Of a DNA stretch of 64,000 nucleotides, positions 4,072 through 41,084 are shown piece by piece. A model generated the notes under the pieces. The model did no database searches. It saw only the letters and a list, made by a program, of their open reading frames with translations, and had not been told where the DNA came from. The stretch's first letter is position 1. Every line of letters starts with the position of its first letter. This stretch comes from Bacteroidales bacterium (lineage in GTDB: Bacteria; Bacteroidota; Bacteroidia; Bacteroidales; ML635J-15), in contig JAGOLH010000003.1 of assembly GCA_017994175.1 (NCBI GenBank), forward strand, positions 1 through 64,000, written 5' to 3'. A program made the translations under genes and the position numbers.

Positions 4072-5112
4072 ATGAGATACTTAAGTAACTTACTATTATT
4101 GATTGCCACAGTTTGTTCCGGCAATGCCGGTTTTTCTCAGCATGGCACCAAAGACTGGGAATGGGAGTGGGCGCCAGTTGGGGCTGTATGGTTGTACGAA
4201 ACAGCCAACATGGGCACGAACAACATTTATGCACAATACTGGTATGTGCGGTCGGCAAAAGATACTCTTTTTCACGGGTTTAACTGCCGTAAATTAGAAG
4301 TCGAACGCCACTACTGGCTCGGTTTCGAGCCAGTAAAGATGCCCGATAGGTTTACTTATCAGGACGGTGGTGACATCTATTTTTACAATGCCGACATAAA
4401 TGAATTTGTACTATCGTTCAGCTACGATATTCAGCATGGCGATACGGTAACTTGGCAAATGCCTGTTTTTGAACATTGTGTTAATTCGTATTATTTAGAT
4501 ACAATTCTAAATTGGGACGTAGGTTATCTATCCGGTGCCGGAACCGCATATACACCTTATTCTGTTTTTATGTATAGCAATGTGCCTATAAGTTCATATA
4601 GAATACGGCGTGTTGAGAATAATTGTTTTGCAGGCGAATTATCAACAAATACTAATTATAGTCATGGACGTTATTTAGATTTCATCGGGACTGGTTCTGA
4701 TTTATATGAGCTTACAATTTTAGAAGAAATGCAAACAAGTTGCCAATGTTACTATGATGGAAGTGTAATAATAAATCTAGCAATCGTTTCAATAAATAAT
4801 GACACAATAATTTATGCTGAAGATTCCTGTCTGAACTATTACAACAAGTTTAACGGCATTTCATCGCATATCGGAAAAAAGTCGCTTAGAGTTTACCCTA
4901 ACCCCTTTACAGACCTTATTAATGTTGATCTTCCCGCTATAGAAGGCAACTACGACATCAGTGTCTACAATCTCATGGGACAACTCCTCTATTCAGATAA
5001 AACACGTAGCAACAACACTCCATTACATTTAAGCCGGCTTGTTAACGGAACCTATCTCCTGCAAATACGAACAAACGATAATGTCTTTAACCAACGTATA
5101 ATCAAAAACTAA
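4072..5112 (+). CDS. T9SS cargo protein with C-terminal sorting domain
   Basis: This 346-residue protein has a signal peptide at 1-23 (LLLLIATVCSGNAGFSQ). The middle is strand-rich with no recognised fold (VWLYETANMGTNNIYAQYWYV; DTLFHGFNCRKLE), a type found in many short Bacteroidota cargo proteins. Residues about 270-346 form the type A sorting domain: SLRVYPNPFTDLINVD, YDISVYNLMGQLLYSD, LVNGTYLLQIRTND. Such proteins cross the outer membrane by the type IX system and are cleaved or anchored at the surface. The genes on either side are broken secreted-protein fragments, so this may be the surviving member of a small array. Confidence 0.85.
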   Translation: MRYLSNLLLLIATVCSGNAGFSQHGTKDWEWEWAPVGAVWLYETANMGTNNIYAQYWYVRSAKDTLFHGFNCRKLEVERHYWLGFEPVKMPDRFTYQDGGDIYFYNADINEFVLSFSYDIQHGDTVTWQMPVFEHCVNSYYLDTILNWDVGYLSGAGTAYTPYSVFMYSNVPISSYRIRRVENNCFAGELSTNTNYSHGRYLDFIGTGSDLYELTILEEMQTSCQCYYDGSVIINLAIVSINNDTIIYAEDSCLNYYNKFNGISSHIGKKSLRVYPNPFTDLINVDLPAIEGNYDISVYNLMGQLLYSDKTRSNNTPLHLSRLVNGTYLLQIRTNDNVFNQRIIKN

Positions 5113-10258: not shown

Positions 10259-12256
10259 ATGTACGACATTAATCAACTTAACGAAAAGCTGTTACCTGAG
10301 CTTAAACTTATAGCACGTGACCTTGGACTTGTAAGAACCGACATGCTGAAAAAAGAAGAACTTGTTTATAAAATTCTTGACCAGCAGGCTATAAATGCAT
10401 CGGCTATACCTGACGAAAAAAAGCAACGACCACCCAGACAACGTCGCAGAGCTGAAAAAATTACGATAAATACCCCTTCGTACCGCGACTTCACATTGTT
10501 TCCCACAAGCAAACCCGAGGAAGCAACAAAAATCTCGTCAGAAGATGCAAAGTCAGAAAACTCCGGCACTCCCGATAACAAAGATGTGATTATTCCTCAT
10601 CGTAAACGCAGGCCTGTGCTTCCGGAAGAAAAAACCCAAGACGAAAGTGCTTTAATTACTAAGATAAATCAATCGATCGAACCGGAGAAGAAGGAGAAAA
10701 AAGAAAACCCAGAAGCTCCTGAAAATAAAAAACGTAAGAAGCGTTTTAGAAAAAAATATGAAAATGTAAGCGTTTCTTCCAATCCACCTGCAGTTAACCC
10801 TGTGACTGCACCAAGTGAAATAATTGCTAATACTCATATTGTTAATGATCAGGTAATACATCAACCTTCAATTATAGCTGACGTTGTATCAGAAGCTGAG
10901 CCTATTGTTGACCGGAAGGAACTAACTCCTCCTGTAAAACATGTAGCCAGCGTTGAACCTCTTCAAGCAAAACGGCAGGAAATCCGTTTGCCTGAACGCG
11001 AAGTAAAAAAAGAAATTTCTGACTCTGCAGATAAAAATGAAGTGAATTCACTTCATGAAAATCAGAAAAACACTGAAACAAGCGAAATAGCAAATCACAC
11101 CGAAGAGCCAGTAAAAGAGACACAATCATTCGAATTTAATGGAATTGTTAACATCGACGGAGTACTCGAAATCGTACCGGACGGGTATGGCTTTCTTCGT
11201 TCGTCCGACTACAATTATTTGAACTCTCCCGACGACGTATATGTAAGTCAATCGCAAATAAAACTTTTTGGGCTGAAAACCGGCGATACTGTCGAAGGAA
11301 GCATACGTCCTCCCCGTGAAGGTGAAAAATATTTTCCGTTGATTAAAATCAATAAAATCAATGGCCGCGACCCTTCAGTAATGCGCGACCGCATTCCTTT
11401 CGATCATCTTACTCCATTATTCCCAACTGAAAAATTCAATATTACAGGGCAGGGAAAAGCCACTTTATCGACAAGAATTGTTGATTTATTCTCTCCCATA
11501 GGCAAAGGCCAGAGAGGTTTGATTGTAGCGCAGCCTAAAACCGGTAAAACGGTACTGCTACAGGAAATCGCCAATGCAATTGCTGCCAATCACCCGGAAG
11601 TATACCTTATGATTCTTCTTATTGATGAGCGTCCGGAAGAAGTTACTGATATGGCGCGAAATGTAAACGCTGAAGTTATTGCTTCAACATTTGATGAACC
11701 GGCAGAACGCCATGTAAGGGTTAGCACGATCGTCTTAGAGAAAGCAAAACGCCTGGTGGAATGCGGTCATGACGTGATAATTCTACTCGATTCCATAACC
11801 CGTCTGGCAAGGGCTTACAACACTGTTGCTCCTGCATCCGGCAGGGTTTTATCGGGTGGTGTCGACAGCAATGCATTGCATAAGCCAAAGCGTTTCTTCG
11901 GAGCCGCACGAAATATCGAAGGGGGTGGTTCGCTGACGATACTTGCAACAGCTTTAACCGAGACCGGTTCAAAAATGGACGATGTCATCTTTGAAGAATT
12001 CAAAGGAACTGGCAATATGGAACTGCAGCTTGATCGTAAACTGTCGAACCGCAGAATTTATCCTGCTGTTGATATCACAGCTTCAAGCACACGCCGTGAA
12101 GATTTGCTCATTCCGGCAGAAGTACTCAATAGGGTGTGGATACTCAGAGAGTTTCTGGCAGATATGAATTCGCTTGAAGCGATGGATTTTATGAGACAAC
12201 GGCTTCCAAACACCAAAGATAATCTCGAATTCCTGATGACAATGGATAAATTATAA
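10259..12256 (+). CDS. rho: Transcription termination factor Rho
   Basis: At 665 residues it is longer than the usual 420, as is typical of Bacteroidota. The Rho N-terminal helical domain lies at about 1-45 ([20 protein letters not shown]). About 230 disordered residues rich in Lys, Glu, Pro and Asn follow. The RNA-binding OB fold is at about 298-365 ([19 protein letters not shown]), and the ATPase carries Walker [12 protein letters not shown] (about 422), [28 protein letters not shown], and the R-loop [22 protein letters not shown]. It forms a hexameric RNA helicase that ends transcripts. The long insertion has been linked in other phyla to RNA binding and phase separation. It is closed by its own hairpin terminator. 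Confidence 0.98.
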
Positions 12257-12271
12257 TGTGTACCTGAAAAC

Positions 12272-12308
12272 AAAAAGGGTAGCAATGTTATTATTGTTAC
12301 CCTTTTTT
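12272..12308. terminator. Bidirectional terminator between rho and S9 peptidase gene
   Basis: AAAAAGGGTAGCAAT pairs with ATTGTTACCCTTTTTT (one G-T), with A-run and T-run on both sides, so it can serve rho and the convergent S9 peptidase gene. Confidence 0.8.
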
Positions 12309-12326
12309 ATTGTGCTTTGGTTAACA

Positions 12327-14429
12327 CTATTTTTTTAAATATGTATCAAGCCACGATCTGAACTCGCGCTGCCATAGAATGGCATTCTGCGGTTTTAGAA
12401 CAAAATGGGTTTCTTCAGGGAATATAAGCAGTTTCGACGGAATACCCCGAAGCTGTGCAGCATTAAATGCCTGCATACTTTCGGTGTATGGTATTCTAAA
12501 GTCTTTGCCTCCGCTGATAATTAATATGGGTGTATCCCATTTGTCCACAAAGCGATGGGGTGAGTTTGCATACGATTTTTGTGCGATAGCATTGTTTTTA
12601 TCCCAATAAGGTCCGCCAAGGTCGAAGTTGGCAAAGAACATTTCTTCGGTGGCTCCGTATTGGCTTTCGAGGTTGAACATACCGCAATGGGCAATAAAAG
12701 CTTTAAACCTGCCCTCATGATGCCCTGCCAACCAGAATACTGAAAAACCCCCATAGCTCGCACCCACTGCTCCCAACCGGTTCTCATCGATATACGGTTC
12801 TTTTGCGAGGGCATCGATTGCCGAAAGATAATCTTTCATATTTTGTCCGCCATAATCACCACTGATCTGCCGGTTCCATTCCTGCCCGAATCCGGGAACA
12901 CCTCTCCTGTTGGGAGCAACTACAATATAACCTCCTGCTGCCATGATCTGAAAATTCCAGCGGAATGAAAAAAACTGACTCACAGCACTCTGAGGACCAC
13001 CCTGACAATACAATAACGCCGGATAGGTTTTTGTGGAATCAAAGTCGGGTGGATAGATAACCCATGTTAGCATCTTTTTATTGTCGGTGGTTGTAATCCA
13101 TCGTTCCTGAACCTTTCCGAAAGTAATATTATCGTATATTTCCTTATTTACAAAGCTCAGCTGTGTCTCTGATCCATCCGGGTTGATCCTGAACAATTCC
13201 GTCGCCATACTCATGCTCATCTTGGCTCCTAATAGCACGTTCTCTGCTTTTGCTATCATTGTGTAATCGTGGATACCTTCAGTGACTTTCCGGATGCTGC
13301 CATCTTCGATATTCAGAGTATAAATCTGATGTGTTCCATTAATTACACTAATAAAATACAAGAATTTTCCATTCTCATCCCAGAGCAGACTCGATGCTGG
13401 CTGATCAAAGTTTGCACTCATATTTTTAATTTCGCCGGTAGCCAAATTTTTAATTATAATTCGGTCCTTATCCGATTCATATCCTGGAGTTTCCATGCTC
13501 AGCCATGCAAGATATTTCAAATCTGGCGAATAAACAGGGTACTTATCGTAACCGTTCATACCATTGCTTACATTGAGCGTTGTTTTACCGGCCAGGTCAT
13601 ATTCATAAATATCGGAATTTGTGCTTAGAGCATACTCCTTGCCGGTAAGCTTCTTACATGTATAGGCAATTTTTCTGGAATCGCTGCTCCACACCATTTC
13701 AGTATTGTCAAAATAAGGGCTCAGTGGGGCATCCCAGGCTTCATCAGGCATAATATCAGTAGCATTATCAATTTTGCCATTATTGAAACCTGCAACAAAA
13801 ATATGGCTCCATAAGTTGTCGTTCCAATGGTTCCAATGCCTATACATCAAATCTTCAGCAATAACAACATTTACCTTAGGCAAATCGGTATATAAATCTT
13901 TGGCCGACTTTCCAACAGCCACCTCTTTGCAAAAGAGAATTTTAGTACCATCAGGCGAAATTTCAAAACTCGAAAGGCCGTTCAGCAATGTGTCACAAAC
14001 CTCTTTATTACTGCCATCGGCATTCATTGACAGCAATTGAGGAGTTTCAGTTTTATCGCTGATATAAAATATTTTTTTTGCATCGGGTGCCCATCTTACA
14101 TTGTAGCAATTGTAAGGGCCTGATGTTAAAGCAACAGGAGCAGGTTTTTCGGTGCTCATTTTAAAGATATGTGTATAGCCTCTGTTTTCTTCGATATTGT
14201 AGAAAGTTACTGTATACAGTACCTCTTTGCCATCATGCGATAGCTGCATTTCACCAATCCTGCCAAATTTCCACATTATTTCCGGTGTTAATACAGCTGC
14301 TTTTTTTTCAGCATCAGTAAGGGAAACATTTACTGGAGTTTTTTCAGATTTTTCGACCGGATTCTGAATACAGGATTCAAAAACCAGAAAAATCGAAAAC
14401 AATAACACGGAAAATGCAATTGACCTCAT
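12327..14429 (-). CDS. S9 family serine peptidase (dipeptidyl/acylaminoacyl peptidase type), lipoprotein
   Basis: This 700-residue protein has a lipoprotein signal ending in FESC at about residue 20. Residues 40-430 form a beta-propeller with PD40-type blades (VRWAPDAKKIFYISDKT, FEISPDGTKILFCKE, PVYSPDLKYLAWLS). The C-terminal alpha/beta hydrolase carries Ser in GASYGGF (about 557), Asp in GGKDFRIPY (about 640) and His in EETHFVLKP (about 672). It should cleave short peptides at the cell envelope. It is the last gene of a bcp-recA-TPR-S9 cluster on the minus strand, 24 nt after the TPR gene, and ends at the shared rho terminator. Confidence 0.93.
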   Translation of the reverse strand: MRSIAFSVLLFSIFLVFESCIQNPVEKSEKTPVNVSLTDAEKKAAVLTPEIMWKFGRIGEMQLSHDGKEVLYTVTFYNIEENRGYTHIFKMSTEKPAPVALTSGPYNCYNVRWAPDAKKIFYISDKTETPQLLSMNADGSNKEVCDTLLNGLSSFEISPDGTKILFCKEVAVGKSAKDLYTDLPKVNVVIAEDLMYRHWNHWNDNLWSHIFVAGFNNGKIDNATDIMPDEAWDAPLSPYFDNTEMVWSSDSRKIAYTCKKLTGKEYALSTNSDIYEYDLAGKTTLNVSNGMNGYDKYPVYSPDLKYLAWLSMETPGYESDKDRIIIKNLATGEIKNMSANFDQPASSLLWDENGKFLYFISVINGTHQIYTLNIEDGSIRKVTEGIHDYTMIAKAENVLLGAKMSMSMATELFRINPDGSETQLSFVNKEIYDNITFGKVQERWITTTDNKKMLTWVIYPPDFDSTKTYPALLYCQGGPQSAVSQFFSFRWNFQIMAAGGYIVVAPNRRGVPGFGQEWNRQISGDYGGQNMKDYLSAIDALAKEPYIDENRLGAVGASYGGFSVFWLAGHHEGRFKAFIAHCGMFNLESQYGATEEMFFANFDLGGPYWDKNNAIAQKSYANSPHRFVDKWDTPILIISGGKDFRIPYTESMQAFNAAQLRGIPSKLLIFPEETHFVLKPQNAILWQREFRSWLDTYLKK

Positions 14430-14453
14430 AATATTAGATTTTATAATTAATTT

Positions 14454-15497
14454 TTATCTTTTGTCTAGCTTATTCAGTGCTTCCACAGCAAGGTCGTAAT
14501 TCGGTGCAATTTCAAGCGCTTTGTTATAGTCGTTTCTTGCTTCTGTCTCATTCCCGGAGAGCTCATAGGCCAGTCCTCTGTTATAATATGCATTCACAGC
14601 CTTCGGGTCGATCTCAACAGCCTTTGAAAAATAACCTATAGCAGCTTTGACATCATCGCCATACACCAATAAATAATATCCCATATTATAATTGGCCTGA
14701 TAATCGGTACTATCTACACTGATTGCCTTTTCAAAAACCTGACGTGTTTTATCGTTTAATCCAAATTTTTCGTACACCAGACCAGCATTGAGAAGTATTT
14801 GCAGATTATCGGGAAAAAGCAATACGGCAGTATTAAAGTAATCGACGGCCAGTTTATTATCAGCCTCGTAATAAATCATACCAATCATGTTATATGCTTC
14901 AGCATGTTTCGGATTGTATTCAAGCACAGAAAGAAGGCTTTCAACAGCTTTTACCGTCATATTATTTTCTTTAAAAATCAGCGCCTTCAGAAAATACGTT
15001 TTATCGCTCTGCTGGTTCATGCCCTCAATAAAGGCTATTTCTTTGATTGCATCATCGTATTGTTTCACATAATAATACAACTGAGCAAGCTTGAAGTGGG
15101 CTTCTTTGTCCTGCGGATGGTGCTTTATACATAGCAACAATGCATCTCTCGAGCGTTCCGATTTTCCAAGCAACAGAAAATAGTCAGCAGCTGTGTGCAG
15201 GTAAACCGGATTGATTGAATCGAGTTTTAAGGCAATTTCGATATCGTTTACGGCTTCCTGAAGGTTACCATTCCCGTAATTCAGCAAGGCTCTTTTATAA
15301 AAGAGTGAATGCTGTCTTGGGTTACTTCTGATTTGAGCAGACAATATTTTTATAGAATCAACAGAATCGTTTGCAACGGTTAAAGCTTTTTGTTTTCCCG
15401 AATTACATGAACAGCTGTTGAGTGCAAGGAATATGAGAACATAAGATATTAAAATCCCAGATACGACAAAAATATTCCGGAGCTTAGTCATTGGCAA
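14454..15497 (-). CDS. TPR-repeat lipoprotein
   Basis: This 347-residue protein has a hydrophobic segment ending in ALNSC, a lipobox with Cys about residue 29. The rest is a solenoid of about eight tetratricopeptide repeats (for example KAVNAYYNRGLAYELSGNETEARNDYNKALEIAPN, split over two helices). Such lipoproteins act as scaffolds in the envelope; the partner is unknown. It starts 12 nt after the recA stop, and ATG at 15491 is an equally good start. The close spacing suggests it is read with recA, although no functional link to DNA repair is evident. Confidence 0.88.
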   Translation of the reverse strand: MPMTKLRNIFVVSGILISYVLIFLALNSCSCNSGKQKALTVANDSVDSIKILSAQIRSNPRQHSLFYKRALLNYGNGNLQEAVNDIEIALKLDSINPVYLHTAADYFLLLGKSERSRDALLLCIKHHPQDKEAHFKLAQLYYYVKQYDDAIKEIAFIEGMNQQSDKTYFLKALIFKENNMTVKAVESLLSVLEYNPKHAEAYNMIGMIYYEADNKLAVDYFNTAVLLFPDNLQILLNAGLVYEKFGLNDKTRQVFEKAISVDSTDYQANYNMGYYLLVYGDDVKAAIGYFSKAVEIDPKAVNAYYNRGLAYELSGNETEARNDYNKALEIAPNYDLAVEALNKLDKR

Positions 15498-15509
15498 CCC
15501 AAAGAATTA

Positions 15510-16523
15510 TTAGTTGGCTTCGAGCCTTGCAACAACCTTCTTCTCGAGTTCTTCGGCGAGTTCCGGATTATCAAGAAGTAGCTGTTTCACAGCATCACGT
15601 CCCTGTCCAAGTTTGGTGTCACCATAGCTGAACCACGATCCGCTTTTCTTGATTATTTCATAATCAACGCTTAAATCAATAATCTCACCTATCTTACTTA
15701 TGCCTTCACCGTACACAATGTCGAATTCTGCTTTCTTAAACGGCGGAGCCATTTTGTTTTTAACTACTTTCACTCTGGTACGACTACCCGTTACATCTTC
15801 GCTCTCTTTAATCTGGGAAATTCTCCGGATATCGAGGCGGATGCTGGCATAGAATTTAAGTGCGTTTCCACCCGTAGTAGTTTCGGGGCTGCCAAACATC
15901 ACTCCAATTTTATCGCGTAGTTGATTGATAAATATACAGCAGGTCTGCGTTTTGCTGATATTTGCAGTAAGTTTTCGTAAAGCCTGCGACATTAAACGGG
16001 CCTGCAGCCCCATTTTACTGTCGCCCATTTCACCTTCGATCTCTGCTTTTGGGGTAAGTGCAGCAACTGAGTCGATAACTATAATATCTATAGCGCCCGA
16101 ACGTATCAAATTATCAGCAATTTCGAGGGCTTGCTCTCCGTTATCGGGTTGTGATATAAACAGATTCTGTGTATCAACACCCAGTTTCTCAGCATAGGTT
16201 CTATCGAAAGCATGCTCTGCATCAATAATGGCAGCAATGCCACCACTTTTCTGTGCTTCAGCAATAGCATGAATCGCTAAGGTTGTTTTTCCCGATGATT
16301 CAGGGCCGTATATTTCAATTACTCTTCCACGGGGATACCCTCCTACTCCCAATGCATAGTTCAATGTTACCGATCCAGAAGGTATAATGGGTACATTTTC
16401 CACAACCTTATCGCCAAGCTTCATGATGGCTCCTTTACCGTAGTCTTTTTCTATTTTACCCAGCGTGAGCTGTAACGCTTTCAGTTTTTCAAGCTTAATA
16501 TCTTCGTTTGTGTTCTTTGCCAT
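15510..16523 (-). CDS. recA: Recombinase A
   Basis: This 337-residue protein has full family length. Walker [10 protein letters not shown] lies at about 68-76, [11 protein letters not shown] follows, Walker [21 protein letters not shown] comes next, and loop L2 has [29 protein letters not shown]. It forms filaments on single-stranded DNA, promotes strand exchange and triggers SOS-type responses. It starts 5 nt after the bcp stop, so the two are translated from one mRNA. No SOS box could be recognised in the short upstream sequence. Confidence 0.98.
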
Positions 16524-16528
16524 ATAAT

Positions 16529-16987
16529 TTAAAGGTTTTTAATTATTTGCTGACTATGATTTTTTGTATCAACTTTCTCAAATATTTGTTCAATAATACC
16601 ATTCTCCGATATAATGTAAGTTGTTCTCAGTACACCTTCATAGCTTTTACCATAAAGTTTTTTTTCCCCCCAGGCTCCATAGGCTTTGAGAATTTGCTTC
16701 TCGGTGTCTGAAATCAGGTCGAAAGGCAGATTATATTTTTCGGCAAACCCCTGATGGCTTTTAGTGCTGTCGGCACTAACACCTAAAACCTGATACCCTT
16801 TATGCTGCCACATTTCGTAGTTATCCCGAAGGTCGCAGGCTTCTGCAGTACAACCGGGGGTATTGTCTTTCGGATAAAAATATAATATCAGCTTTTTCCC
16901 ACTATAGTCTGATAGCGCAACAATCTTTCCTGACTGTGTAATTCCCTTAAAATCAGGAGCTTTATCGCCAAGCTTTAATTTTTGCAT
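16529..16987 (-). CDS. bcp: Thioredoxin-dependent thiol peroxidase (Bcp/PrxQ)
   Basis: This 152-residue peroxiredoxin reduces hydroperoxides with thioredoxin. The peroxidatic Cys lies in [19 protein letters not shown] (about 45), and the resolving Cys five residues later is present, as in the 2-Cys PrxQ type. [22 protein letters not shown] and [13 protein letters not shown] complete the fold. It is the first gene of the bcp-recA-TPR-S9 cluster, and divergent from the giant gene across 207 bp. Confidence 0.95.
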
Positions 16988-17100
16988 AAATACATTTCTT
17001 TGTACAAATATATTTTTTTCAGTGCAGAATCAGGGGTTTGAAAATAAAAGTTTATTAACAATCGTGCGATTTTACATCCCAAATATCAAAAACAGAGGCT

Positions 17101-17134
17101 TTTGTTAGGCTGACACTATTTTTATGTATCTTTA
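17101..17134 (+). promoter_or_regulatory. Candidate promoter of the giant envelope-protein gene
   Basis: TTTG (17101-17104), a 22-bp spacer and TATCTTTA (17127-17134) resemble the Bacteroidota promoter. A 12-codon frame (17143-17181) with four His codons lies in the leader; its meaning is unclear. Confidence 0.4.
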
Positions 17135-17194
17135 TAGGTTTTATGGAATTGCACAAACATAACCATCATTGCTTTTGTTAAAGGCTTACCGAAA

Positions 17195-20100
17195 TTGACG
17201 CAGGTATATAAAATAGTATGGCTCTTTTCCATCTTCACCCTGATAATTTTTCGTTTCAGTGGTTTTTCACAGGAATTGAGTGTAAAACTACTACCCGGAG
17301 AACAAAAGGTGTTCGAACAAGCTGTTTATGAATTTGAGAGTGAATCGTATCTTTCGGCAAAAGAACGATTCTCGCAGCTTCTGAGCCTATATCCAAGAGA
17401 AATATATTTCAATTATGCCTACGGGGCATGTCTTGTTTGTTTGAATACTGAATTTACAAAAAGCATAGATTATTTGGAATATGCCTTAGACGGGGGTATG
17501 TATCAGGCAAACTACTTTCTTGGAATGGCCTATCATCTGCGTTATATGTTCGACAACGCTATTCGTTACTACGAAGATTATCAGCAAAGGGCAACGGGAA
17601 AGGACATAAAGCTGCTGCCGGTGGACCGGCAGATTAAAATGGCGCAAAACGGAATTGACCTGATTCGGTATAGCTATGATTTGCAAGTTGTTGAATCGAA
17701 AAACGTAAAAACTGACAATTTTTACTACTCCTACAACTCAAACTCCAGAAGTGGAGAAATAGTTGTTATCCCCGAAGCCTTTAAAACTAAAAACGACAAG
17801 AAACGAAACTATTCAGGTTTGATGTATGTTTCAAAGTTGTACAATATTGCATTTTTCAGCAGCTATGGTACAGAAAAGAAAAGTAATCTTGACTTGTATA
17901 TGGTAGTTAAAGAAGGTGATGCATGGAGTGCTCCCAAAAAGCTGCCGAAAATTGTAAATTCCGTTGAAGATGAGTCATTTCCGTTTTTTCACCCTAATGG
18001 AGAATTCTTGTATTTTAGTTCAAAAGGTCACAACAGCATGGGCGGTTACGATATTTTCAGAGTTGCCTATAACCGCGAATCGGATAAATGGTCGGAACCG
18101 GAGAACCTCGATTTTCCTATCAACACTCCACTTGAAGATATTATGTACATAACAGACGATAGGGACCTTACTGCCTTTTTTGCATCAACCAGAGAGGCTG
18201 AAGCCGGAAGAATCGGAGTGTATCAGATATTGATTGAAAAAAATCCGGCCCAACGGCAGATTGCAAACATCGATGACGTAAGAAAGACTTCACATTTGCA
18301 AATTAACCCTATAGCAGTAAAAGAATTCGAAAAAAGGTCGCAGGCGCTGATTGCCTTGAATAACGATACTGCTTCTGAGTTCAATAATCAAATCCCTGAC
18401 ATTAACACCCCATCAAATGATACCGCCACTACTGATAAACTCCATGAAGCAAACACCAACATTGATAGTTTACAAAAAAGAGCTGAATTTTACACAATTA
18501 AAAACGAAGCGACCCTGTCGCAAATTCAGCAGTACATGGATGAAATCGATAGGCTCGAGGTGGAGAAACAACTAATTGCTGGTAAAAACATCCCTGCCGA
18601 AGAAAAAAACAAGCAAATTTCAAATATTGACGCGAAAATATATGTCTACACCGACAGCCTTGCTGTTTTAAAGGACCTATCTGACAATTACGAGCTTACC
18701 ATTAATGAAATGAAGCAGAAATCAGACTATTACAATACCCAAATAACTGAAATCGAAAATCATAATACCGAAAACCCTACCAACGAAAAAAGTCTGGATA
18801 TTATAAATACCGAAGTCAAGAAAGAACTTACTGTTAATCCGGGGTCAGATTTTCTGGAAAACCTGCAAAAGGAAATTGAAGCCAAAAACAATCAAATCAG
18901 AACAAACCACGACTATCTACAGTCAGTTGAGAGGAGAATTAACGAAATTGATTCGCAAATCATGGATTTGAACGACAGCTTGCTGTTTACGAATGACCCT
19001 GAAAAACAACAGGCAGCAAGGAAACAAATTGAAATGCTTAAAACGGAGCGGAATCGCCTGGTTGTAGATTACAAAGAACGGTTTCTCCAACAGGAATTCC
19101 TTATAAAAGAAACCCGGCAGCTCGAAAAAGAACAGGCAATTGCAGCATCATTAGTAAATGAACCGAATGTCAATTACCCTAAAACAGGGCTCAGTGCTGA
19201 AATTGTGCTGAATAAGGCAGAAAAATATATTGCTCGCCGCGATCAGCGAAACCTGAAAGATCTTGCTGTAATGCAGAACCAGGTGCTCGATTCTGTGTTT
19301 TTCGACAATTCAACTCTGGCAAATAATAGGATATTGGCTGAAAACAATATGTTGCACGAGAAAACCCTGCACGAGAAAAATAATATCCAGAAAATACATA
19401 TAATCACCGAAAGCCCTCTTTTTGATGAAAGCCTTGTAAACACTTACCTTGCAACAGCCGATTCTCTCGGAGCAGAACTTGAACATACCCAAAAAATGTT
19501 TGAGTCGGAAACCAATATCGAAAAGAGGAACGAACTCCTGAACAATTATAATAACACCCTTGCTGAACTTAATGAAGTTTATACCCACATCAACGATGAA
19601 ATTACTGTAGTAAACAACACGATTGCTGTTAATAATGTTTCGAATGAAAATGTTGATGACATCAGAGATAAAACCGAAAGCCAGATTGCTATTCAAAAAG
19701 AAAAGGGACTCTCAAATGATGTAATACTCGCAGAAGATTACCTTACAACTGCTGATTCATTATATGCAATGGCAGCGGAAGCGGATGACAAATTGCCGGC
19801 CTTGCAGGATTATTACCTGAAAGAAGCAATAATATATGAAGCAAAAGCATTCGAAATTACACACAACAACCTTACGGCAAATAATCAGAATAATTTTAAT
19901 AACACAAACCAAAACGAAACGATAAATTCTGACACTTTATTGGTTTATCAACCTGACTCCTTATCAATTGATAGCATTATCAATGAAACCAAGCAACAGA
20001 TCCAGATTATTGAAAACACATATAGCAACCAAAACAACGACAGCATCTGGGATAAAACTATTGCCGGTTACAACGAGCTTGATGAAATAAATTCTGCCAT

Positions 20101-23100
20101 CAGGAATACATCTGATGACAATACAAAAATAAGCTTGCAGGATTATGCAACTCAAATTTTTAAGGAAACCCGCGACCTGCATGCACAGGCTGCTGAGCAA
20201 CTGCTAAATAAGAACCTTGAAGAATATCTAATTTTTGATAAATCATTCAGGGAAACAAGTGACCATAGCATTTCGAAGGCGAACACCCCTGAAGCTTTAG
20301 ACCGTCGTAATTCGGCAATAGCACTGCATAACCAGGCAGCAAACCTGCTGATTGCTGCAGAAGAAACAACCAACGACAGTTTGAAAAATGAATTGATAAT
20401 TGAAGCTGCCCAGCTCGAGAGTCAGGCCGTGCAAGAATATAAAAAGGCTTTCGAAATTGCCATAGACACCAACTTCTATACATCAGTTAAAGAACCTGAA
20501 TACAGCTTCGTTACCAGTAATTTAACCATAGACACGATTGTATCGGAATACATCGAAATTAGAAATGAATTGCCACAATCAAATACCAACCTTCAGTCAA
20601 CCAACGAAGAAGAGATTGTGATGCAGCAAATCGACTCTTTGCTAATAAAAGCAGAAAACATAAATACTTCCATTGCTTCGTTACAAACGGAATATGAAAA
20701 AACAGACATTCCATCGGAGCAAAACCGTATAATCAATGAAATTGATTCGCTCAGGAATGAGCAGGAGATTATTGTGGACTCAGCCTACAGTACGCTCGTT
20801 GATTTACAGCAACAGAAAATCAGAAAAAACAGAGATTTTATTGAAGCAAATAAAGCCAATTACACTGACCGTAAAAAGTTGTACCTCGAAATTGAAGATG
20901 ATTATCTAAGTTACAGCAAAGCCATCAGCGATAAAGCATACCGGAGCGAAACCAATTACTTCTACCTGCTTCAGGAAATTGTAGTTTTTGGCGACAGCAT
21001 TCTTGCAAAACAACAGCAGTTAATTTCGGAAAAAACAAACAATACTCAACCTGAAAACAAAACAATTACCAGCCGCATCGAAGAAATTGGCAGGAAAATG
21101 CTGAAAACGGATAATTGGGTTGCCGAAAACGTGCAACGCCAGGCCACTAGTTTTGAAAATCAGCGCAATAACCTGACTGTTCCTTCCGAGGCTCAAAAAA
21201 ATTACATGCAGAATAGCGAAAGAACACTTACTTCGAATATGCATATTATTAATAACAACCCGGAAATCAAATCAATAGTAACCCGGGCTGATAGTGCTAT
21301 GAATGAGGCTGCTACAATTCGAAAGGAGCTATCCGACAATTTTCAGACCTACTCAAACAATGAAATTGAAGCCCGTGTGGCCCGGGCCGATTCACTCGAA
21401 ACCCTAGGACTGGCATACCAGAACAAAGCAATTGAGTTAATTGAAGTTGATAAACAGCTTGCTATTGCGCGCGAAGACAGTGTACGGTATGCTCAAAAAG
21501 AAGCTGCATGGAACGACACGTTTAATGTAAACCGTAACTTGCTCGACACAATTTCTACAACGAGCACCGAAATAAATTCGGCTATAGAAAAAGCAATTAT
21601 TGTTTCGGACAGTTTGATGAATGAAGCTACCAAGATTCGGGATAATATTAGCGATAACAATAACAGGTTTACAGAGAATGAGAAAAATCAACTGCAACAA
21701 CATGCAGATTCGCTAACTACTGCCGCAATCGATTTACAAAATCAAGCGATTAAATTTTCAACCAACAACGATATTCAATCCGCACAGCTGATTAATTCCA
21801 ACTACAGTTATTTAATTGAGAATCCAATTAGGGATAGCATTGTTATGACATACCGGCCTATAAGCAAAGAAAGCCTATTCCTCCTGCCTGAAAATGAAAT
21901 TGATGCAAACAAGTTCCTGAACAATACAACTGATAGAGAAGTAATCGATAAATTAACAAAGGAACGTGAAGAATTACGGTTGCAAATAAAATCAATTGAC
22001 GAAGAAATCCTGCTTGTTCAGGACTATATCTCAAAAACCAGTAACGCTACGGACAAAACCAAACTTATTGCCGAACGTGACAGTCTACTTACCGACAGAA
22101 GCCAAAAGGTGGAAAAGTACTTAGCAACAAATGACGATATTCTGAATTATTCCATTTCGAAACTTGAAGAAAAGCGATTGAAATTAAAAACAGATTCCCC
22201 TGCTTTAAAACAGCAGGCTGATAGTCTGACAAAGGATGCAAGGCGCAAGGAACAACAAGCCGATTCGTTGCGGATAGCAGCTATGCAGAGCAATGATATA
22301 ATTAATTCGAAAAGCGACCTGCTGGCTCAGGCAAATGCCTTAGATGAAGAGGCACTTTCGCAACGAAGTGAGGCAATCATGATACTTGAAAGCCCTGCTG
22401 CTGATACTGTTCAACAAAACACGGTTCTTAATGGTAATAATACAAATAATACCCCTGCATCAGAAAATGTTCTTGTTTTCAGAATCCAATTTGCTGCATA
22501 TAACCGAATTGTTGGAGATGAATACACAAAAGGCCTAAGCCCTCTGTTCACAGAGAAAGTCCCTGATAGACAGCTGATACGGTATATGACCGGCGATTAT
22601 CCCAATTTCGAAACGGCTGCCCGTGCGCTTCCCGGTGTTAAAAATGTTGGCTTCAACGATGCTTTTATTGTTGCTTACTTGAATGGGAAACGGATTACCA
22701 TATTTGAAGCGAACCAATACCTTGCACAACAAAAAGTATCAAAGAACGAGATTATTGCTGTAAATGACCAGCAACAAGCGACAAACCAAAATGTAACAGA
22801 CTCCGTTGAAAAAGCGAACTCACAATATGGCATAATAGATGTAAAAGCCGTAGAAGGGGTTTTTCTCTGTGTGCAATTTGCTGCAGCAAAAAGGATTTTA
22901 CTACCCGGTGAGATTTTCGGGTTAAGTGCTGATTTTCTGGAATTTTTAGACAATGGTTATATCAGGCACCTGAGCGGAAAATTCTATTCAATGAACGATG
23001 CTGCCAATGCCCGAAACATAATACGAGCTACAGGGGCAAACGATGCATTTATTACCGCTTATCGAAACGGGGTAAGGATACCGGTTAACGAAGCTCTTCA

Positions 23101-23461
23101 GCTAATTGCCTCACAGCCATCCGGCTCCACCGATACTGCAACAATTGCTGTTCATAAAACAAATACACCAAATCCGGCCATTAACACTGAGAGTTTTGTC
23201 ATTGAAATTTATGTACAGATAGGTGCTTATCGTTCTGAAGTGAATACAGAAATTTACAACATGTTCAAAAATATAGCTGGAACTAACAACATTACCACTG
23301 TTCAAAGAAACAATCTTATCATATATCGTATTGGTCCTCTACAATCAAAAGCCACTGCTAACGAAGTGCGTATAACAGCAGTTGAAGCGGGAATAACAGA
23401 TGCCTTTATTGTTGCTTATAAAAACGGGAAACAAATACCATTACGTGAAATAAATGATTAG
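17195..23461 (+). CDS. Giant envelope protein: TPR, PD40 propeller, helical ADSL repeats, three SPOR-like repeats
   Basis: This 2088-residue protein has a signal peptide at 1-26 (FTLIIFRFSGFSQ) and TPR-like helices at about 30-160. PD40 blades at about 185-345 include SFPFFHPNGEFLYFSSKGHN and SMGGYDIFRV, the form seen in PorE-like and OmpA-linked proteins. About 1400 residues follow, rich in Asn, Glu, Gln and Ile, predicted helical, with a recurring ADSL motif. Three related repeats end the protein (about 1757-1845, 1885-1972, 1999-2088), each with a VQ(F/I)(A/G)A start and (T/N)DAFI(V/T)AY near the end, similar to SPOR peptidoglycan-binding domains. It could link the outer membrane to peptidoglycan. 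No ATG exists at the front; TTG at 17195 is the only start that keeps the signal peptide. clpS follows by 21 nt. Confidence 0.85.
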   Translation: MTQVYKIVWLFSIFTLIIFRFSGFSQELSVKLLPGEQKVFEQAVYEFESESYLSAKERFSQLLSLYPREIYFNYAYGACLVCLNTEFTKSIDYLEYALDGGMYQANYFLGMAYHLRYMFDNAIRYYEDYQQRATGKDIKLLPVDRQIKMAQNGIDLIRYSYDLQVVESKNVKTDNFYYSYNSNSRSGEIVVIPEAFKTKNDKKRNYSGLMYVSKLYNIAFFSSYGTEKKSNLDLYMVVKEGDAWSAPKKLPKIVNSVEDESFPFFHPNGEFLYFSSKGHNSMGGYDIFRVAYNRESDKWSEPENLDFPINTPLEDIMYITDDRDLTAFFASTREAEAGRIGVYQILIEKNPAQRQIANIDDVRKTSHLQINPIAVKEFEKRSQALIALNNDTASEFNNQIPDINTPSNDTATTDKLHEANTNIDSLQKRAEFYTIKNEATLSQIQQYMDEIDRLEVEKQLIAGKNIPAEEKNKQISNIDAKIYVYTDSLAVLKDLSDNYELTINEMKQKSDYYNTQITEIENHNTENPTNEKSLDIINTEVKKELTVNPGSDFLENLQKEIEAKNNQIRTNHDYLQSVERRINEIDSQIMDLNDSLLFTNDPEKQQAARKQIEMLKTERNRLVVDYKERFLQQEFLIKETRQLEKEQAIAASLVNEPNVNYPKTGLSAEIVLNKAEKYIARRDQRNLKDLAVMQNQVLDSVFFDNSTLANNRILAENNMLHEKTLHEKNNIQKIHIITESPLFDESLVNTYLATADSLGAELEHTQKMFESETNIEKRNELLNNYNNTLAELNEVYTHINDEITVVNNTIAVNNVSNENVDDIRDKTESQIAIQKEKGLSNDVILAEDYLTTADSLYAMAAEADDKLPALQDYYLKEAIIYEAKAFEITHNNLTANNQNNFNNTNQNETINSDTLLVYQPDSLSIDSIINETKQQIQIIENTYSNQNNDSIWDKTIAGYNELDEINSAIRNTSDDNTKISLQDYATQIFKETRDLHAQAAEQLLNKNLEEYLIFDKSFRETSDHSISKANTPEALDRRNSAIALHNQAANLLIAAEETTNDSLKNELIIEAAQLESQAVQEYKKAFEIAIDTNFYTSVKEPEYSFVTSNLTIDTIVSEYIEIRNELPQSNTNLQSTNEEEIVMQQIDSLLIKAENINTSIASLQTEYEKTDIPSEQNRIINEIDSLRNEQEIIVDSAYSTLVDLQQQKIRKNRDFIEANKANYTDRKKLYLEIEDDYLSYSKAISDKAYRSETNYFYLLQEIVVFGDSILAKQQQLISEKTNNTQPENKTITSRIEEIGRKMLKTDNWVAENVQRQATSFENQRNNLTVPSEAQKNYMQNSERTLTSNMHIINNNPEIKSIVTRADSAMNEAATIRKELSDNFQTYSNNEIEARVARADSLETLGLAYQNKAIELIEVDKQLAIAREDSVRYAQKEAAWNDTFNVNRNLLDTISTTSTEINSAIEKAIIVSDSLMNEATKIRDNISDNNNRFTENEKNQLQQHADSLTTAAIDLQNQAIKFSTNNDIQSAQLINSNYSYLIENPIRDSIVMTYRPISKESLFLLPENEIDANKFLNNTTDREVIDKLTKEREELRLQIKSIDEEILLVQDYISKTSNATDKTKLIAERDSLLTDRSQKVEKYLATNDDILNYSISKLEEKRLKLKTDSPALKQQADSLTKDARRKEQQADSLRIAAMQSNDIINSKSDLLAQANALDEEALSQRSEAIMILESPAADTVQQNTVLNGNNTNNTPASENVLVFRIQFAAYNRIVGDEYTKGLSPLFTEKVPDRQLIRYMTGDYPNFETAARALPGVKNVGFNDAFIVAYLNGKRITIFEANQYLAQQKVSKNEIIAVNDQQQATNQNVTDSVEKANSQYGIIDVKAVEGVFLCVQFAAAKRILLPGEIFGLSADFLEFLDNGYIRHLSGKFYSMNDAANARNIIRATGANDAFITAYRNGVRIPVNEALQLIASQPSGSTDTATIAVHKTNTPNPAINTESFVIEIYVQIGAYRSEVNTEIYNMFKNIAGTNNITTVQRNNLIIYRIGPLQSKATANEVRITAVEAGITDAFIVAYKNGKQIPLREIND

Positions 23462-23470
23462 TTTTTTGCG

Positions 23471-23478
23471 TATATTTG
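23471..23478 (+). promoter_or_regulatory. Perfect -7 box very close to clpS start
   Basis: TATATTTG matches the TAnnTTTG box exactly but ends only 4 nt before the clpS ATG, with no clear TTTG at the expected distance upstream. If used, the clpS mRNA would be almost leaderless. Confidence 0.3.
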
Positions 23479-23482
23479 CAGT

Positions 23483-23761
23483 ATGACAAAAAAGGATACA
23501 CAAATACAAAATTCAGGCAATCCGAGCGAGAATTTGTCTCTGGATAACATTCTTGTTTTGCATAACGACGATTTCAACACATTTGATTTTGTTATTGAAT
23601 GTCTGGTTACCATTTGCGATCACGATGACCTTCAAGCTGAGCAATGTGCTTTTCTCACGCATTATAAAGGAAAGTGTGAAATTAAGAAAGGAAAATTCGA
23701 CATTTTGAAGCCAATGAAGGACTCTCTGGTTGAGAAGGGGCTTAGTGTTACATTAGAATAA
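23483..23761 (+). CDS. clpS: ATP-dependent Clp protease adaptor ClpS
   Basis: This 92-residue protein shows ILVLHNDDFNTFDFVIECLVTIC, the ClpS core with the NDD substrate-binding Asn and Asp residues. QAEQCAFLTHYKGKCEIKKGKFD supplies the His of the N-degron pocket and the ClpA/C contact surface. It delivers N-end-rule substrates to the Clp protease. The N-terminal 18 residues are a flexible tail, as is usual. It lies 21 nt behind the giant gene and ends at a strong terminator. Confidence 0.92.
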   Translation: MTKKDTQIQNSGNPSENLSLDNILVLHNDDFNTFDFVIECLVTICDHDDLQAEQCAFLTHYKGKCEIKKGKFDILKPMKDSLVEKGLSVTLE

Positions 23762-23795
23762 AAAAAGGCTGCGATTGTTAAAGGCAGCCTTTTTC
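23762..23795. terminator. Bidirectional terminator between clpS and DUF3467 gene
   Basis: AAAAAGGCTGC and GGCAGCCTTTTT form the stem around GATTGTTAAA, with A and T runs suited to both strands. It closes clpS and, on the minus strand, the long rpoBC gene run. Confidence 0.85.
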
Positions 23796-23811
23796 AATTT
23801 CATATACAATT

Positions 23812-24135
23812 TCAGGCCTGAGCTGTAGGTCCTCCGAATGTCATTGGAATTACAGGTCCCTGACTCGATTCATTTACTTTAATAGGCCCGTTCATTTGCT
23901 CGTATTTTTGAATATTGTCCTTTAAAGCCATCATTAGTCTTTTGGCATGCTCCGGAGTGAGAATGACTCTTGATTTCACCTGAGCTTTCGGAACACCGGG
24001 CATAATCCTTACGAAATCGATTACAAACTCTGAACTGCTATGTGTTATCACAGCGAGATTCGAGTAGGTACCCTGAGCGACATCTTCCTTAAGTTCGATG
24101 CTGATCTGATTTTGTTTAAGGTTTTTATCTTCCAT
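23812..24135 (-). CDS. DUF3467 domain protein
   Basis: This 107-residue protein matches the DUF3467 pattern: IELKEDVAQGTYSNLAVITHSSSEFVIDF, RIMPGVPKAQVKSRVILTPEHAKRLMMAL. The family is short, conserved in Bacteroidota and of unknown function. It starts 5 nt after the rpoC stop and is the last gene before the terminator, so it is almost surely made together with the RNA polymerase subunits. A role near transcription or translation is an inference from position. Confidence 0.88.
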   Translation of the reverse strand: MEDKNLKQNQISIELKEDVAQGTYSNLAVITHSSSEFVIDFVRIMPGVPKAQVKSRVILTPEHAKRLMMALKDNIQKYEQMNGPIKVNESSQGPVIPMTFGGPTAQA

Positions 24136-24140
24136 ATTTC

Positions 24141-27100
24141 TTATTCATTGACGTGTTCGTATTTCTCACTGACCTGAGCCATTTCTTCTTTGTTGCCAAC
24201 CAAATATGTACTGTATTCGCGCAATCCTGTTCCGGCAGGAATCAGGTGTCCGACAATTACATTTTCTTTCAATCCATCGAGAGGATCTACTTTTCCGCTA
24301 ATAGCAGCCTCATTCAGAACCTTTGTTGTTTCCTGGAATGAAGCGGCTGACATGAAGCTCTTTGTTTGCAATGCAGCTCTTGTAATACCCTGCAACACTT
24401 GGCTTGAAGTTGCCGGAACGGCATCGCGGGCCATTATTGGCTGAAGGTCTTTACGTTTCAAAATAGAATTCTCATCGCGCAGTTTTCTGGCGGAAATAAT
24501 CTGTCCAGCTTTCGCAGTAGATGAATCACCGGGCTCAATAACCACTTTTTTATCGAAGATAGCGTCGTTAACTTCCCGGAATTCCCATTTATCAACAATT
24601 TGCTTCTCGAGGAAACGGGTATCACCCGGGTCTTCTATTTCGACTTTTCGCATCATTTGCCGAACAATTACTTCGAAATGTTTATCGTTAATTTTCACAC
24701 CCTGCATACGGTAAACTTCCTGAACCTCACTTACAATATATTCCTGAACCATTGTGGGTCCTTTAATATTCAGTATATCGATTGGCGTAATAGCTCCTTC
24801 CGACAATGGTGTTCCGGCACGAACAAAATCGCTGTCTTGTACGAGAATTTGTTTTGATAATGGTACCAGATAGCGTTTCTCCTCATTTTCCTTTGAACGG
24901 ATAATGATTTCCCTGTTACCACGTTTAATTTTTCCGAATTCTACCTGACCATTGATTTCACAAACAACTGCCGGGTTCGACGGATTTCGTGCTTCGAAAA
25001 GTTCGGTAACACGTGGCAAACCACCGGTGATGTCACCACCTTTACCAACAACTCTCGGTATCTTAACAAGAATTTTACCTGCGACTACTTTTTCGTTCTC
25101 CTGAACAATGATATGTGCACCCACAGGGAGGTTATAAGTTTTCAGGACTTCGTTTTTACCGGTAATAATCTTTACAACTGGTATTTTCGACTTATCTCTG
25201 GTTTCGATAATTACTTTTTCGCGATAGCCTGTCTGATCATCCGCTTCTTCTCGATAAGTAATCCCTTCAATAACATTTTCAAAGTCAACTTTACCGGCAA
25301 CTTCAGTAATGATTACTGAGTTGAACGGATCCCAGCTGCAAACCACAGTGTTTTTCTCAACAAACTGACCTGGTTTTACGAATAGTTTCGACCCATAAGG
25401 AATATTGTTAGTCATAATAATGATGCCTGTGTTTTTATCAACCAGTCTCATTTCGCCCATACGACCAATAACAATATCATATTTTTCACCTTGTTCATTA
25501 ACGTATTCAACTGTTCTGAGATCCTCAATCTCAACAATACCTTCGTATTTCACAAAAATAGTTGATTCAGTTGCAATGTTACCTGCAACCCCGCCGACGT
25601 GGAAAGTACGAAGGGTAAGCTGTGTTCCCGGCTCACCAATTGATTGAGCCGCTATCACACCAACAGCTTCACCTTTTTGCACCATTCGTCCAGTTGCCAG
25701 ATTTCGGCCATAGCATTTTGCACAAACACCTCGTTTCGATTCGCAAGTTAACACCGACCTGATTTCAACCTCTTCGATAGGAGATGAATCAATAATATCG
25801 GCTACGTCTTCTGTGATTTCCTGCCCGGCAGCAACAATAAGTTCTCCCGTCTGAGGATGATATACATCATGAACTGTTGTACGACCCAGTATTCTTTCAT
25901 AGAGTGTTTCAACCACTTCTTCGTTTTTCTTGATTGTGGTTGCCACAAGTCCTCTCAGCGTTCCGCAGTCTTCTTCGTTGATTACAATGTCCTGAGCCAC
26001 GTCAACAAGTCGTCGTGTGAGGTAACCAGCGTCTGCAGTTTTAAGAGCTGTGTCGGCAAGACCCTTACGTGCGCCGTGAGTTGAAATAAAATACTCCAGA
26101 ATCGACAAGCCTTCTTTGAAGTTGGAAAGAATCGGGTTTTCAATAATTTCAGCTCCGGTTGAGATTGATTTCTGCGGTTTACCCATCAAACCCCTCATAC
26201 CACACAACTGCCTAATCTGTTCGTTAGAACCGCGGGCACCGGAGTCAAGCATCATATATACTGAATTAAAGCCCTGATTGTCTTCCGACAACTGCTTCAT
26301 AACTTCTTTTGCAAGGTTTGCATTTACGTGAGTCCATACGTCGATAACCTGATTGTACCTTTCATTATTGGTAATAAACCCTGATTCGTAATTAGATCGT
26401 ATTTCCTCAACAGCACGATAGCCTTCTTCAATCATTTTCTGTTTGCTTTCAGGTACTATCACATTATCGAGGTTAAACGACAGACCTCCTTTGAAAGCCA
26501 TGCTGAAACCAAGATCTTTAATATCGTCGAGGAATTTTGCAGTGGCAGCTGTTCCTGCCTTTTTGAGCACTGTTCCAATAATCGAACGTAAGGATTTTTT
26601 TGTCAGTACTTCGTTCAAATAGCCAACTTCTCTGGGAACTGACTGGTTAAAAATAACGCGTCCGGTTGTTGTTTCAATCAAATGATTGATGTAGTTGCCA
26701 TCTTTATCAATATCATCAACCTTAACTTTAATGATTGCATGCAAGCCAAGTTTTGCCTCGTTGTATGCAATAATTACTTCTTTAGGTCCATAGAACGTCA
26801 GCCCTTCTCCCAAAGCGCCCCTGCGTTTTTTGGTGATATAATACAATCCAAGTACCATGTCCTGAGATGGAACAGTAATTGGAGCACCGTTTGCAGGGTT
26901 AAGTATATTATGTGAAGCCAACATCAGCAGTTGCGCTTCGATGATAGCTTCGTTTCCAAGTGGCAGGTGAACTGCCATCTGGTCACCGTCGAAGTCAGCA
27001 TTGAAAGCAGTGCAGACTAATGGGTGCAATTGAATAGCCTTTCCTTCAATAAGTTTGGGTTGAAAAGCCTGAATTCCCAAACGGTGCAGTGTTGGGGCCC

Positions 27101-40175: not shown

Positions 40176-41084
40176 CTACATGTTTAAATCTTTGGTATAT
40201 AGTTCTGTTTTTGTATTGCTGACCTCAAAAACCGTGTCGGCACCAAAAACAATACTGCGGTTGTCGTCGGTATGGCCTGCCGGAAAGCCAAAACAAACCG
40301 GGTAGGAATAGTCTGCAACATGTTCGGCAACGATCTGGTAAGCATTTTTTCCAAAAGGGTTTTTATTGTCAAGCATGTCGCTGAAACTGCCCACGATAAG
40401 CCCTGAAATATGTTGCAGCACACCCGCCAGTTTCAGGCTGATCATCATTCTGTCGATATGATACAAATATTCGTTAAGGTCTTCTATAAATAGTATCTTA
40501 CCCTTCGTTTCAGGGAAATATGGTGTTCCAAGAAGCGAATACAGCACCGACAGATTTCCGCCGGTCACGACTGCCTCTGTTTTTCCGGCGCGGTTCATTT
40601 CGTGATGCGGCAATAGATAGTACATTCCCAATCCTTTCAGGGCGTTCAGGGCAGTATCGGTTGAAAGGGTTCCTGCAACCGAAAGGCTTTTGGTCATGGC
40701 TCCGTGAACCGATGCCACCCCTGCATTTCCAACATGTGCATGGAGTATGGTAATATCGCTGAAACCGAGCAGCCATTTAGGCTTCTTCATAAAGCCGTCC
40801 AACCTGATTGAAGGCAACAGTCTGATTGTACCATATCCACCCCGCGAGCAGATAATACAGGCAGCTTCGCTGTCGTCGAAGGCAGCCTGCACATCCATCA
40901 GGCGTTGAGCATCGGTCCCCGAGTACTGAAAATGCTGCGAAAGAACATGCTCACCCACCCGAATGTGAAAGCCGTTCCTTTCGAGGTTTTCAACAGCCGG
41001 GTAGAATTGTTTCGGGTCAATTTTTCCTGCAGGACTCACAATATGTATGGTATCGCCTTTCTGAAGCGGTGCCGGTATTATCAT
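40176..41084 (-). CDS. LD-carboxypeptidase, peptidase family S66
   Basis: This 302-residue protein begins LQKGDTIHIVSPAGKIDP and has ICSRGGYGTIRLLP and the nucleophile Ser in LLGFSDITILHA (about 109). Glu lies in FIEDLNEYLYHIDRM, and His in FPAGHTDDNRSIVFG near the end. Such enzymes remove the terminal D-Ala from tetrapeptides in murein recycling in the cytoplasm (LdcA type). It is convergent with glmM and is a single gene. Confidence 0.92.
   Translation of the reverse strand: MIIPAPLQKGDTIHIVSPAGKIDPKQFYPAVENLERNGFHIRVGEHVLSQHFQYSGTDAQRLMDVQAAFDDSEAACIICSRGGYGTIRLLPSIRLDGFMKKPKWLLGFSDITILHAHVGNAGVASVHGAMTKSLSVAGTLSTDTALNALKGLGMYYLLPHHEMNRAGKTEAVVTGGNLSVLYSLLGTPYFPETKGKILFIEDLNEYLYHIDRMMISLKLAGVLQHISGLIVGSFSDMLDNKNPFGKNAYQIVAEHVADYSYPVCFGFPAGHTDDNRSIVFGADTVFEVSNTKTELYTKDLNM

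Follow-up and report, generated by a model that had tools for sequence, protein, structure and literature searches.

A long Bacteroidota envelope protein that joins a PorE-like front to a triple SPOR tail: a candidate link between outer envelope and cell wall at the division septum

We report that a 2088-aa protein encoded on a Bacteroidales contig is one member of a large Bacteroidota envelope family, as yet undescribed, in which a TPR-PD40 front is followed by a long helical stalk and a C-terminal tail of SPOR domains. The gene lies in a window (the whole stretch of DNA that was analysed) of 64,000 nucleotides, from a 3.17-Mb genome in 129 contigs that is 95% complete. We propose, with a probability of about one half, that the protein is a septal scaffold or tether that couples the outer envelope to the cell wall at division.

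The reading frame is stop-free throughout from its TTG start (Table 1), and the N-terminal hydrophobic stretch is followed by the signal-peptide-like end 'FSGFSQ'. The signal region contains no cysteine, and lipobox-like matches were found in only 3 of 113 relatives. Neither Pfam nor the predicted structure revealed an OmpA or OmpA_C domain or a CRD in the protein. The first-pass annotation had described a 2088-residue envelope protein with TPR, PD40 and SPOR parts and no OmpA domain, and the reading frame, signal peptide, Pfam matches and models bear this out. It had also called for structure prediction, which we carried out: TPR helices, strands, a helical stalk and three SPOR folds were all modelled. 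The AlphaFold model that covers the front used 32 aligned sequences; pTM was low in the models (0.43 and 0.32), so that the relative placement of the domains is meaningless. No Rfam family was found within positions 12000-24500, and promoter-like sites did not exceed the number expected by chance.

Table 1. Coordinates of the gene, its encoded domains and its neighbours in the window.
Feature	Position	Strand	Evidence
Whole gene, TPR-PD40-stalk-triple-SPOR protein	17195..23461	+	ORF, TTG start; 92 complete relatives
Signal peptide, residues 1-26, lacking a cysteine of lipobox type	17195..17272	+	sequence; hydrophobic helix 2-22 in model
TPR domain, residues 34-158	17294..17668	+	AlphaFold helices; Foldseek and structural alignment
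Shortened PD40 beta-domain, residues 164-346, ~3 blade-like units	17684..18232	+	Pfam PD40, model strands, partial NCBIfam CHU_0125/PorE matches
Helical stalk, residues 359-1756, Asn-rich linkers, low conservation	18269..22462	+	model and alignment
Stalk repeat, residues 1041-1085	20315..20449	+	iterated profile
Stalk repeat, residues 1471-1518	21605..21748	+	iterated profile
Stalk repeat, residues 1682-1727	22238..22375	+	iterated profile
SPOR domain 1, residues 1760-1839	22472..22711	+	family profile, weak Pfam, model, motif
SPOR domain 2, residues 1889-1967	22859..23095	+	family profile, model, motif
SPOR domain 3, residues 2003-2085	23201..23449	+	Pfam, family profile, model, structural alignment
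clpS	23483..23761	+	Pfam ClpS; start 22 bases past stop codon of the 2088-aa gene
AhpC/TSA-family peroxiredoxin (bcp-like), divergent	16529..16987	-	conserved neighbour in part of Bacteroidales
recA	15510..16523	-	conserved neighbour in part of Bacteroidales

Searches with the whole protein returned no matches in NCBIfam or the PDB. Pfam placed a PD40 match over cut-off at residues 250-289 (E 3.8e-5) and a TPR match below threshold (E 0.024). In the AlphaFold model, the TPR helices are followed by eleven strands (residues 164-346) and by helices from residue 359 onward. The TPR helices matched solved TPR domains (Foldseek probability 1.00; VIA Z 17.0, rmsd 2.1, 117 residues). For residues 164-346, the PDB fold search gave no clear beta-propeller match, its match list being filled by TPR. 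This region spans ~183 residues, about 86 fewer than the 269-residue propeller of PorE, whose domain boundaries have been reported (PMC7192894); the N-terminal TPR typical of PorE is present, a full propeller of that length is not. Against NCBIfam, the first 400 residues scored 65 bits with PorE (NF052230, cut-off 600) and 76.7 bits with the CHU_0125 family (NF053607, residues 211-369), the best named match, also below its cut-off of 620. Some members of the family carry a CRD after the PD40 region, as PorE does (relative L111, for example, has a CarboxypepD_reg match).

In the C-terminal tail, only the third SPOR domain passed the Pfam cut-off (E 3.7e-7), the first giving a weak match (E 0.0065), and the family profile recovered all three. 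Each was modelled with the order beta-alpha-beta-beta-alpha-beta and a pLDDT mostly of 83-95. The top two PDB matches of the C-terminal half were the SPOR domains of RlpA (6i05) and CwlC (1x60), both with a Foldseek probability of 1.00, and SPOR3 aligned to the RlpA SPOR domain solved with denuded glycan over 72 residues (Z 8.7, rmsd 2.0). In RlpA, Q270 is the glutamine that contacts the glycan (PMC6895207). The corresponding strand-1 glutamine is present in all three SPOR domains of the 2088-aa protein, and a VQ[IVFL][GA] motif with this ligand Gln occurs in 59, 60 and 52 of 62 sequences at SPOR domains 1, 2 and 3, respectively. The profile used to call SPOR domains in relatives was trained on the family itself; independent support comes from Pfam, in 29 of 36 C-termini, and from the folds. 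The three SPOR-like domains originally suggested are therefore confirmed by the family profile, the folds and the PDB matches. Across the family, conservation is highest in the N-terminal domain and next highest at the triple-SPOR end, the stalk being free in both length and sequence.

About 1400 mostly helical residues lie between the PD40 region and the SPOR tail. The length and helical character first assigned to this part were correct; it is not one rod, being modelled as helices of ~20-80 residues separated by low-confidence Asn-rich linkers. Self-BLAST gave no matches within the stalk, and a loose 46-residue helical unit (consensus EADKLFKQAKKLREKANATKDPKEKEALLEKAEELEKEAIEKQKEA) surfaced with an iterated profile, in three copies here and in up to seven in relatives, often at a spacing of ~87 residues. 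Because the heptad signal is weak (z 2.6), we do not call the stalk a coiled coil. Among the 65 members with at least three SPOR domains, its median length is 1358 residues and its range 422-2072, about fivefold.

Relatives were not found when contigs were scanned with the single protein as query, and alignments were needed. A profile scan of genome contigs then gave at least 587 sequences related to the N-terminal domain, some of them perhaps PorE-type paralogues; the best 80 of these come mostly from metagenome-assembled genomes (MAGs) named Bacteroidales, Flavobacteriales, Chitinophagaceae and Crocinitomicaceae, and the nearest named relatives are Bacteroidales MAGs. The N-terminal profile separates the family from PorE-type paralogues, giving one contiguous match of 300-370 residues as opposed to fragments, and the 2088-aa protein shows this contiguous match followed by the stalk and three SPOR domains. 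A search for the same architecture, also called for in the first-pass annotation, found exactly three SPOR domains in 61 of 92 complete Bacteroidota relatives, more in 4, one or two in 16 and none in 11. The design had been called uncommon; it is indeed absent from annotation libraries, but common in Bacteroidota. No curated family model describing a TPR-PD40-stalk-SPOR architecture was found, and the open-access literature on SPOR with PD40, Bacteroidetes or Flavobacterium yielded no account of the family, although an earlier description is possible. In a phylum-wide sample of 247 genomes there were four matches with 8 candidates per genome scored, and the negatives of this sample were not used; closer scoring of 20 of these genomes revealed no copy in them.

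One Bacteroidales branch is reduced to one or two SPOR domains, or to a SPOR-less form of 472-508 aa. In a quick tree of uncertain root, long forms fell on either side of the deepest split, and almost all forms of short or middle length grouped within a Bacteroidales part. This pattern suggests an old long form that underwent a single reduction, although the branch concerned has a support of only 89. MAG contigs may contain frame errors; in four of them (L126, L153, L147, L085) the orthologue is spread over two or three neighbouring frames, which probably reflects sequence errors, possibly a real split.

The genomic context is partly conserved. The family gene is directly followed by clpS in 49 of 90 loci. 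A frequent order in Bacteroidales is S9 peptidase/recA/bcp, divergent from gene-clpS-nfeD-floA, and a frequent order in Flavobacteriales MAGs is prmA, an unknown protein of ~1490 aa, plsY, the family gene, clpS and an M48 protease. The protein encoded between prmA and plsY, immediately ahead of the family gene in many Flavobacteriales-type loci, is exported and of ~1480-1540 aa (for example L108:5369-9805 (+), L095:4621-9201 (+) and L056:13834-18399 (-)); no Pfam or NCBIfam family was found for it. Elsewhere in the window, positions 40176-41084 (-) encode an LD-carboxypeptidase of family S66, of the peptidoglycan-recycling type.

The signal peptide, the NCBIfam matches of the front and the SPOR folds support the early description: the envelope protein is exported, its front resembles PorE, and a tail of peptidoglycan-binding type replaces OmpA. 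In the mechanism that we propose, the protein would be a non-lipidated, soluble periplasmic scaffold. Its TPR-PD40 front would engage a partner protein of the outer envelope, the long, flexible and segmented stalk would supply reach, and the three SPOR domains would bind the peptide-stripped glycan strands that amidases generate at the septum of dividing cells. Septa are enriched in SPOR ligands, and glycan that keeps its peptide stems is not bound (PMC6895207). Two Amidase_3 genes are present in the genome, thus the SPOR ligand can be made there. Because its tail is predicted to bind amidase-made, denuded septal glycan, the protein would most likely collect at the division site and couple the outer membrane, or a partner bound to it, to septal peptidoglycan; this coupling could act in constriction or in daughter-cell separation. 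Since the protein has no lipid anchor, its attachment to the outer membrane would rest wholly on the putative partner. Several findings count against this proposal. The SPOR-less front is kept in one Bacteroidales branch, and therefore SPOR binding is dispensable for the job of the front in that branch. Many genomes have no detected copy, thus the protein is not a universal division part. Moreover, the clpS neighbour gives no mechanistic clue, and Pfam recognizes one of the three SPOR domains only.

Other roles have to be weighed against the septal tether. The protein could be a general tether between outer membrane and peptidoglycan, distributed cell-wide like Pal or OmpA, its SPOR domains sitting on residual denuded stretches anywhere and with no special part in division. 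The PorE-like front, the CRD shared by PorE and some members and the tether role proposed for PorE itself (PMC12204202) speak for such a function, but the tail is SPOR and not OmpA, the ligands of SPOR domains are enriched at the septum and bound only when free of peptide stems, and a lipid anchor is lacking; we find this reading rather unlikely. The missing lipid anchor would also fit a periplasmic protein that organises or activates cell-wall enzymes at the septum; its front would bind a hydrolase or synthase that the SPOR tail only delivers, with no link to the outer membrane. TPR domains bind proteins, and E. coli SPOR proteins are described as stimulating class A PBPs (PMC7642682); the front, however, groups with the outer-membrane-associated PorE and CHU_0125 proteins, and we hold this possibility to be unlikely. 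A ruler of fixed length from outer membrane to peptidoglycan was also considered, the long helical stalk lying between two binding ends and having a median of well over a thousand residues. It was rejected on the variation in stalk length and is very improbable; this variation and the segmentation of the stalk by disordered linkers favour reach and flexibility over measurement. The suggestion that the protein spans the periplasm is thus weakened in the sense of a ruler.

A role as an accessory of type IX secretion (T9SS) or gliding, like that of PorE, was suggested by the T9SS cargo genes in the window. These are indeed four (sorting-domain genes at 4072, 43523, 46532 and 51983), but all lie at least 12 kb from the 2088-aa gene. 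The N-terminal kinship to PorE and the presence of SprA in the genome would also fit; this SprA (G000:C8:3091-10229 (-)) is divided between two adjacent open frames (profile 3-986 and 1046-2318), probably through a frame break or assembly error. In contrast, co-occurrence across the order argues against such a role: among 149 genomes, with 13 candidates per genome scored so that some absences may be false, SprA was found in 140 and the SPOR-tailed family, by its contiguous N-terminal match, in 65, two of which lack SprA, and 77 SprA-positive genomes had no detected copy. The genome of the window also has separate PorE-like genes of its own, the two best scoring 592 and 563 bits, a little short of the cut-off of 600. 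Furthermore, the 20 genomes of the phylum-wide sample in which (nearly) all candidates were scored, all of high quality and from the same class, had PorE-like fragments and no family copy, and no T9SS gene was seen as a conserved neighbour in the loci compared. All together, we conclude that presence of the family is not tied to T9SS, and a secretion or gliding function appears improbable.

The septal tether bears on how the outer membrane is constricted and held at division in Bacteroidota, an open question in a phylum reported to have no identifiable tol-pal loci and in which further systems that stabilise the outer membrane remain to be revealed (PMC12204202). A broadly distributed family that pairs a PorE-like front with a glycan-binding tail of the division type is a concrete candidate for such a system. 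One front module would be combined with two domains that read the cell wall: OmpA, for normal peptidoglycan, and SPOR, for denuded glycan. Only tentatively do we go further and picture the family as a septal device for outer-membrane constriction or coupling in Bacteroidota, partly replacing Tol-Pal with one giant triple-SPOR polypeptide beside PorE-type tethers.

Among known systems, PorE (P. gingivalis PG1058) shares the order of TPR, PD40/WD40 and peptidoglycan-binding tail, but the 2088-aa protein has neither lipobox, CRD nor OmpA domain, and carries the stalk and three SPOR domains in place of OmpA. The CHU_0125 family, annotated as an OmpA-like outer membrane integrity protein, is likewise of the OmpA type, with no SPOR domain or stalk. 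A second exported protein of the window's genome, of ~880 aa (G000:C41:29496-32108; L161:5482-8118, -), combines TPR, PD40, CRD and OmpA with a C-terminal SPOR match, an architecture that, judged from its sequence, stands between PorE and the SPOR-tailed family. RlpA, FtsN, DamX, DedD and CwlC, the SPOR proteins of division, have the same C-terminal fold and ligand glutamine; the 2088-aa protein differs from them in its tandem of three SPOR domains on a TPR-PD40 front, and it has neither a transmembrane anchor nor a lipoprotein signal, and no catalytic domain. The TPR domain recalls CpoB and the PD40 units TolB, and the cell-wall-binding tail and the possible septal role between outer membrane and peptidoglycan also recall Tol-Pal (CpoB, TolB, Pal). 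Here, however, a single chain is found, with a SPOR instead of a Pal/OmpA tail and no TolB N-terminal domain; in the genome search, TolB (TIGR02800) did not match the 2088-aa gene and reached only scores below cut-off elsewhere, and TolA had no match. PorE has been described as a fusion of CpoB-, TolB- and Pal-like domains and proposed to tether the outer membrane to peptidoglycan (PMC12204202); the SPOR-tailed protein may be its septum-addressed counterpart and, in part, that of Tol-Pal/CpoB.
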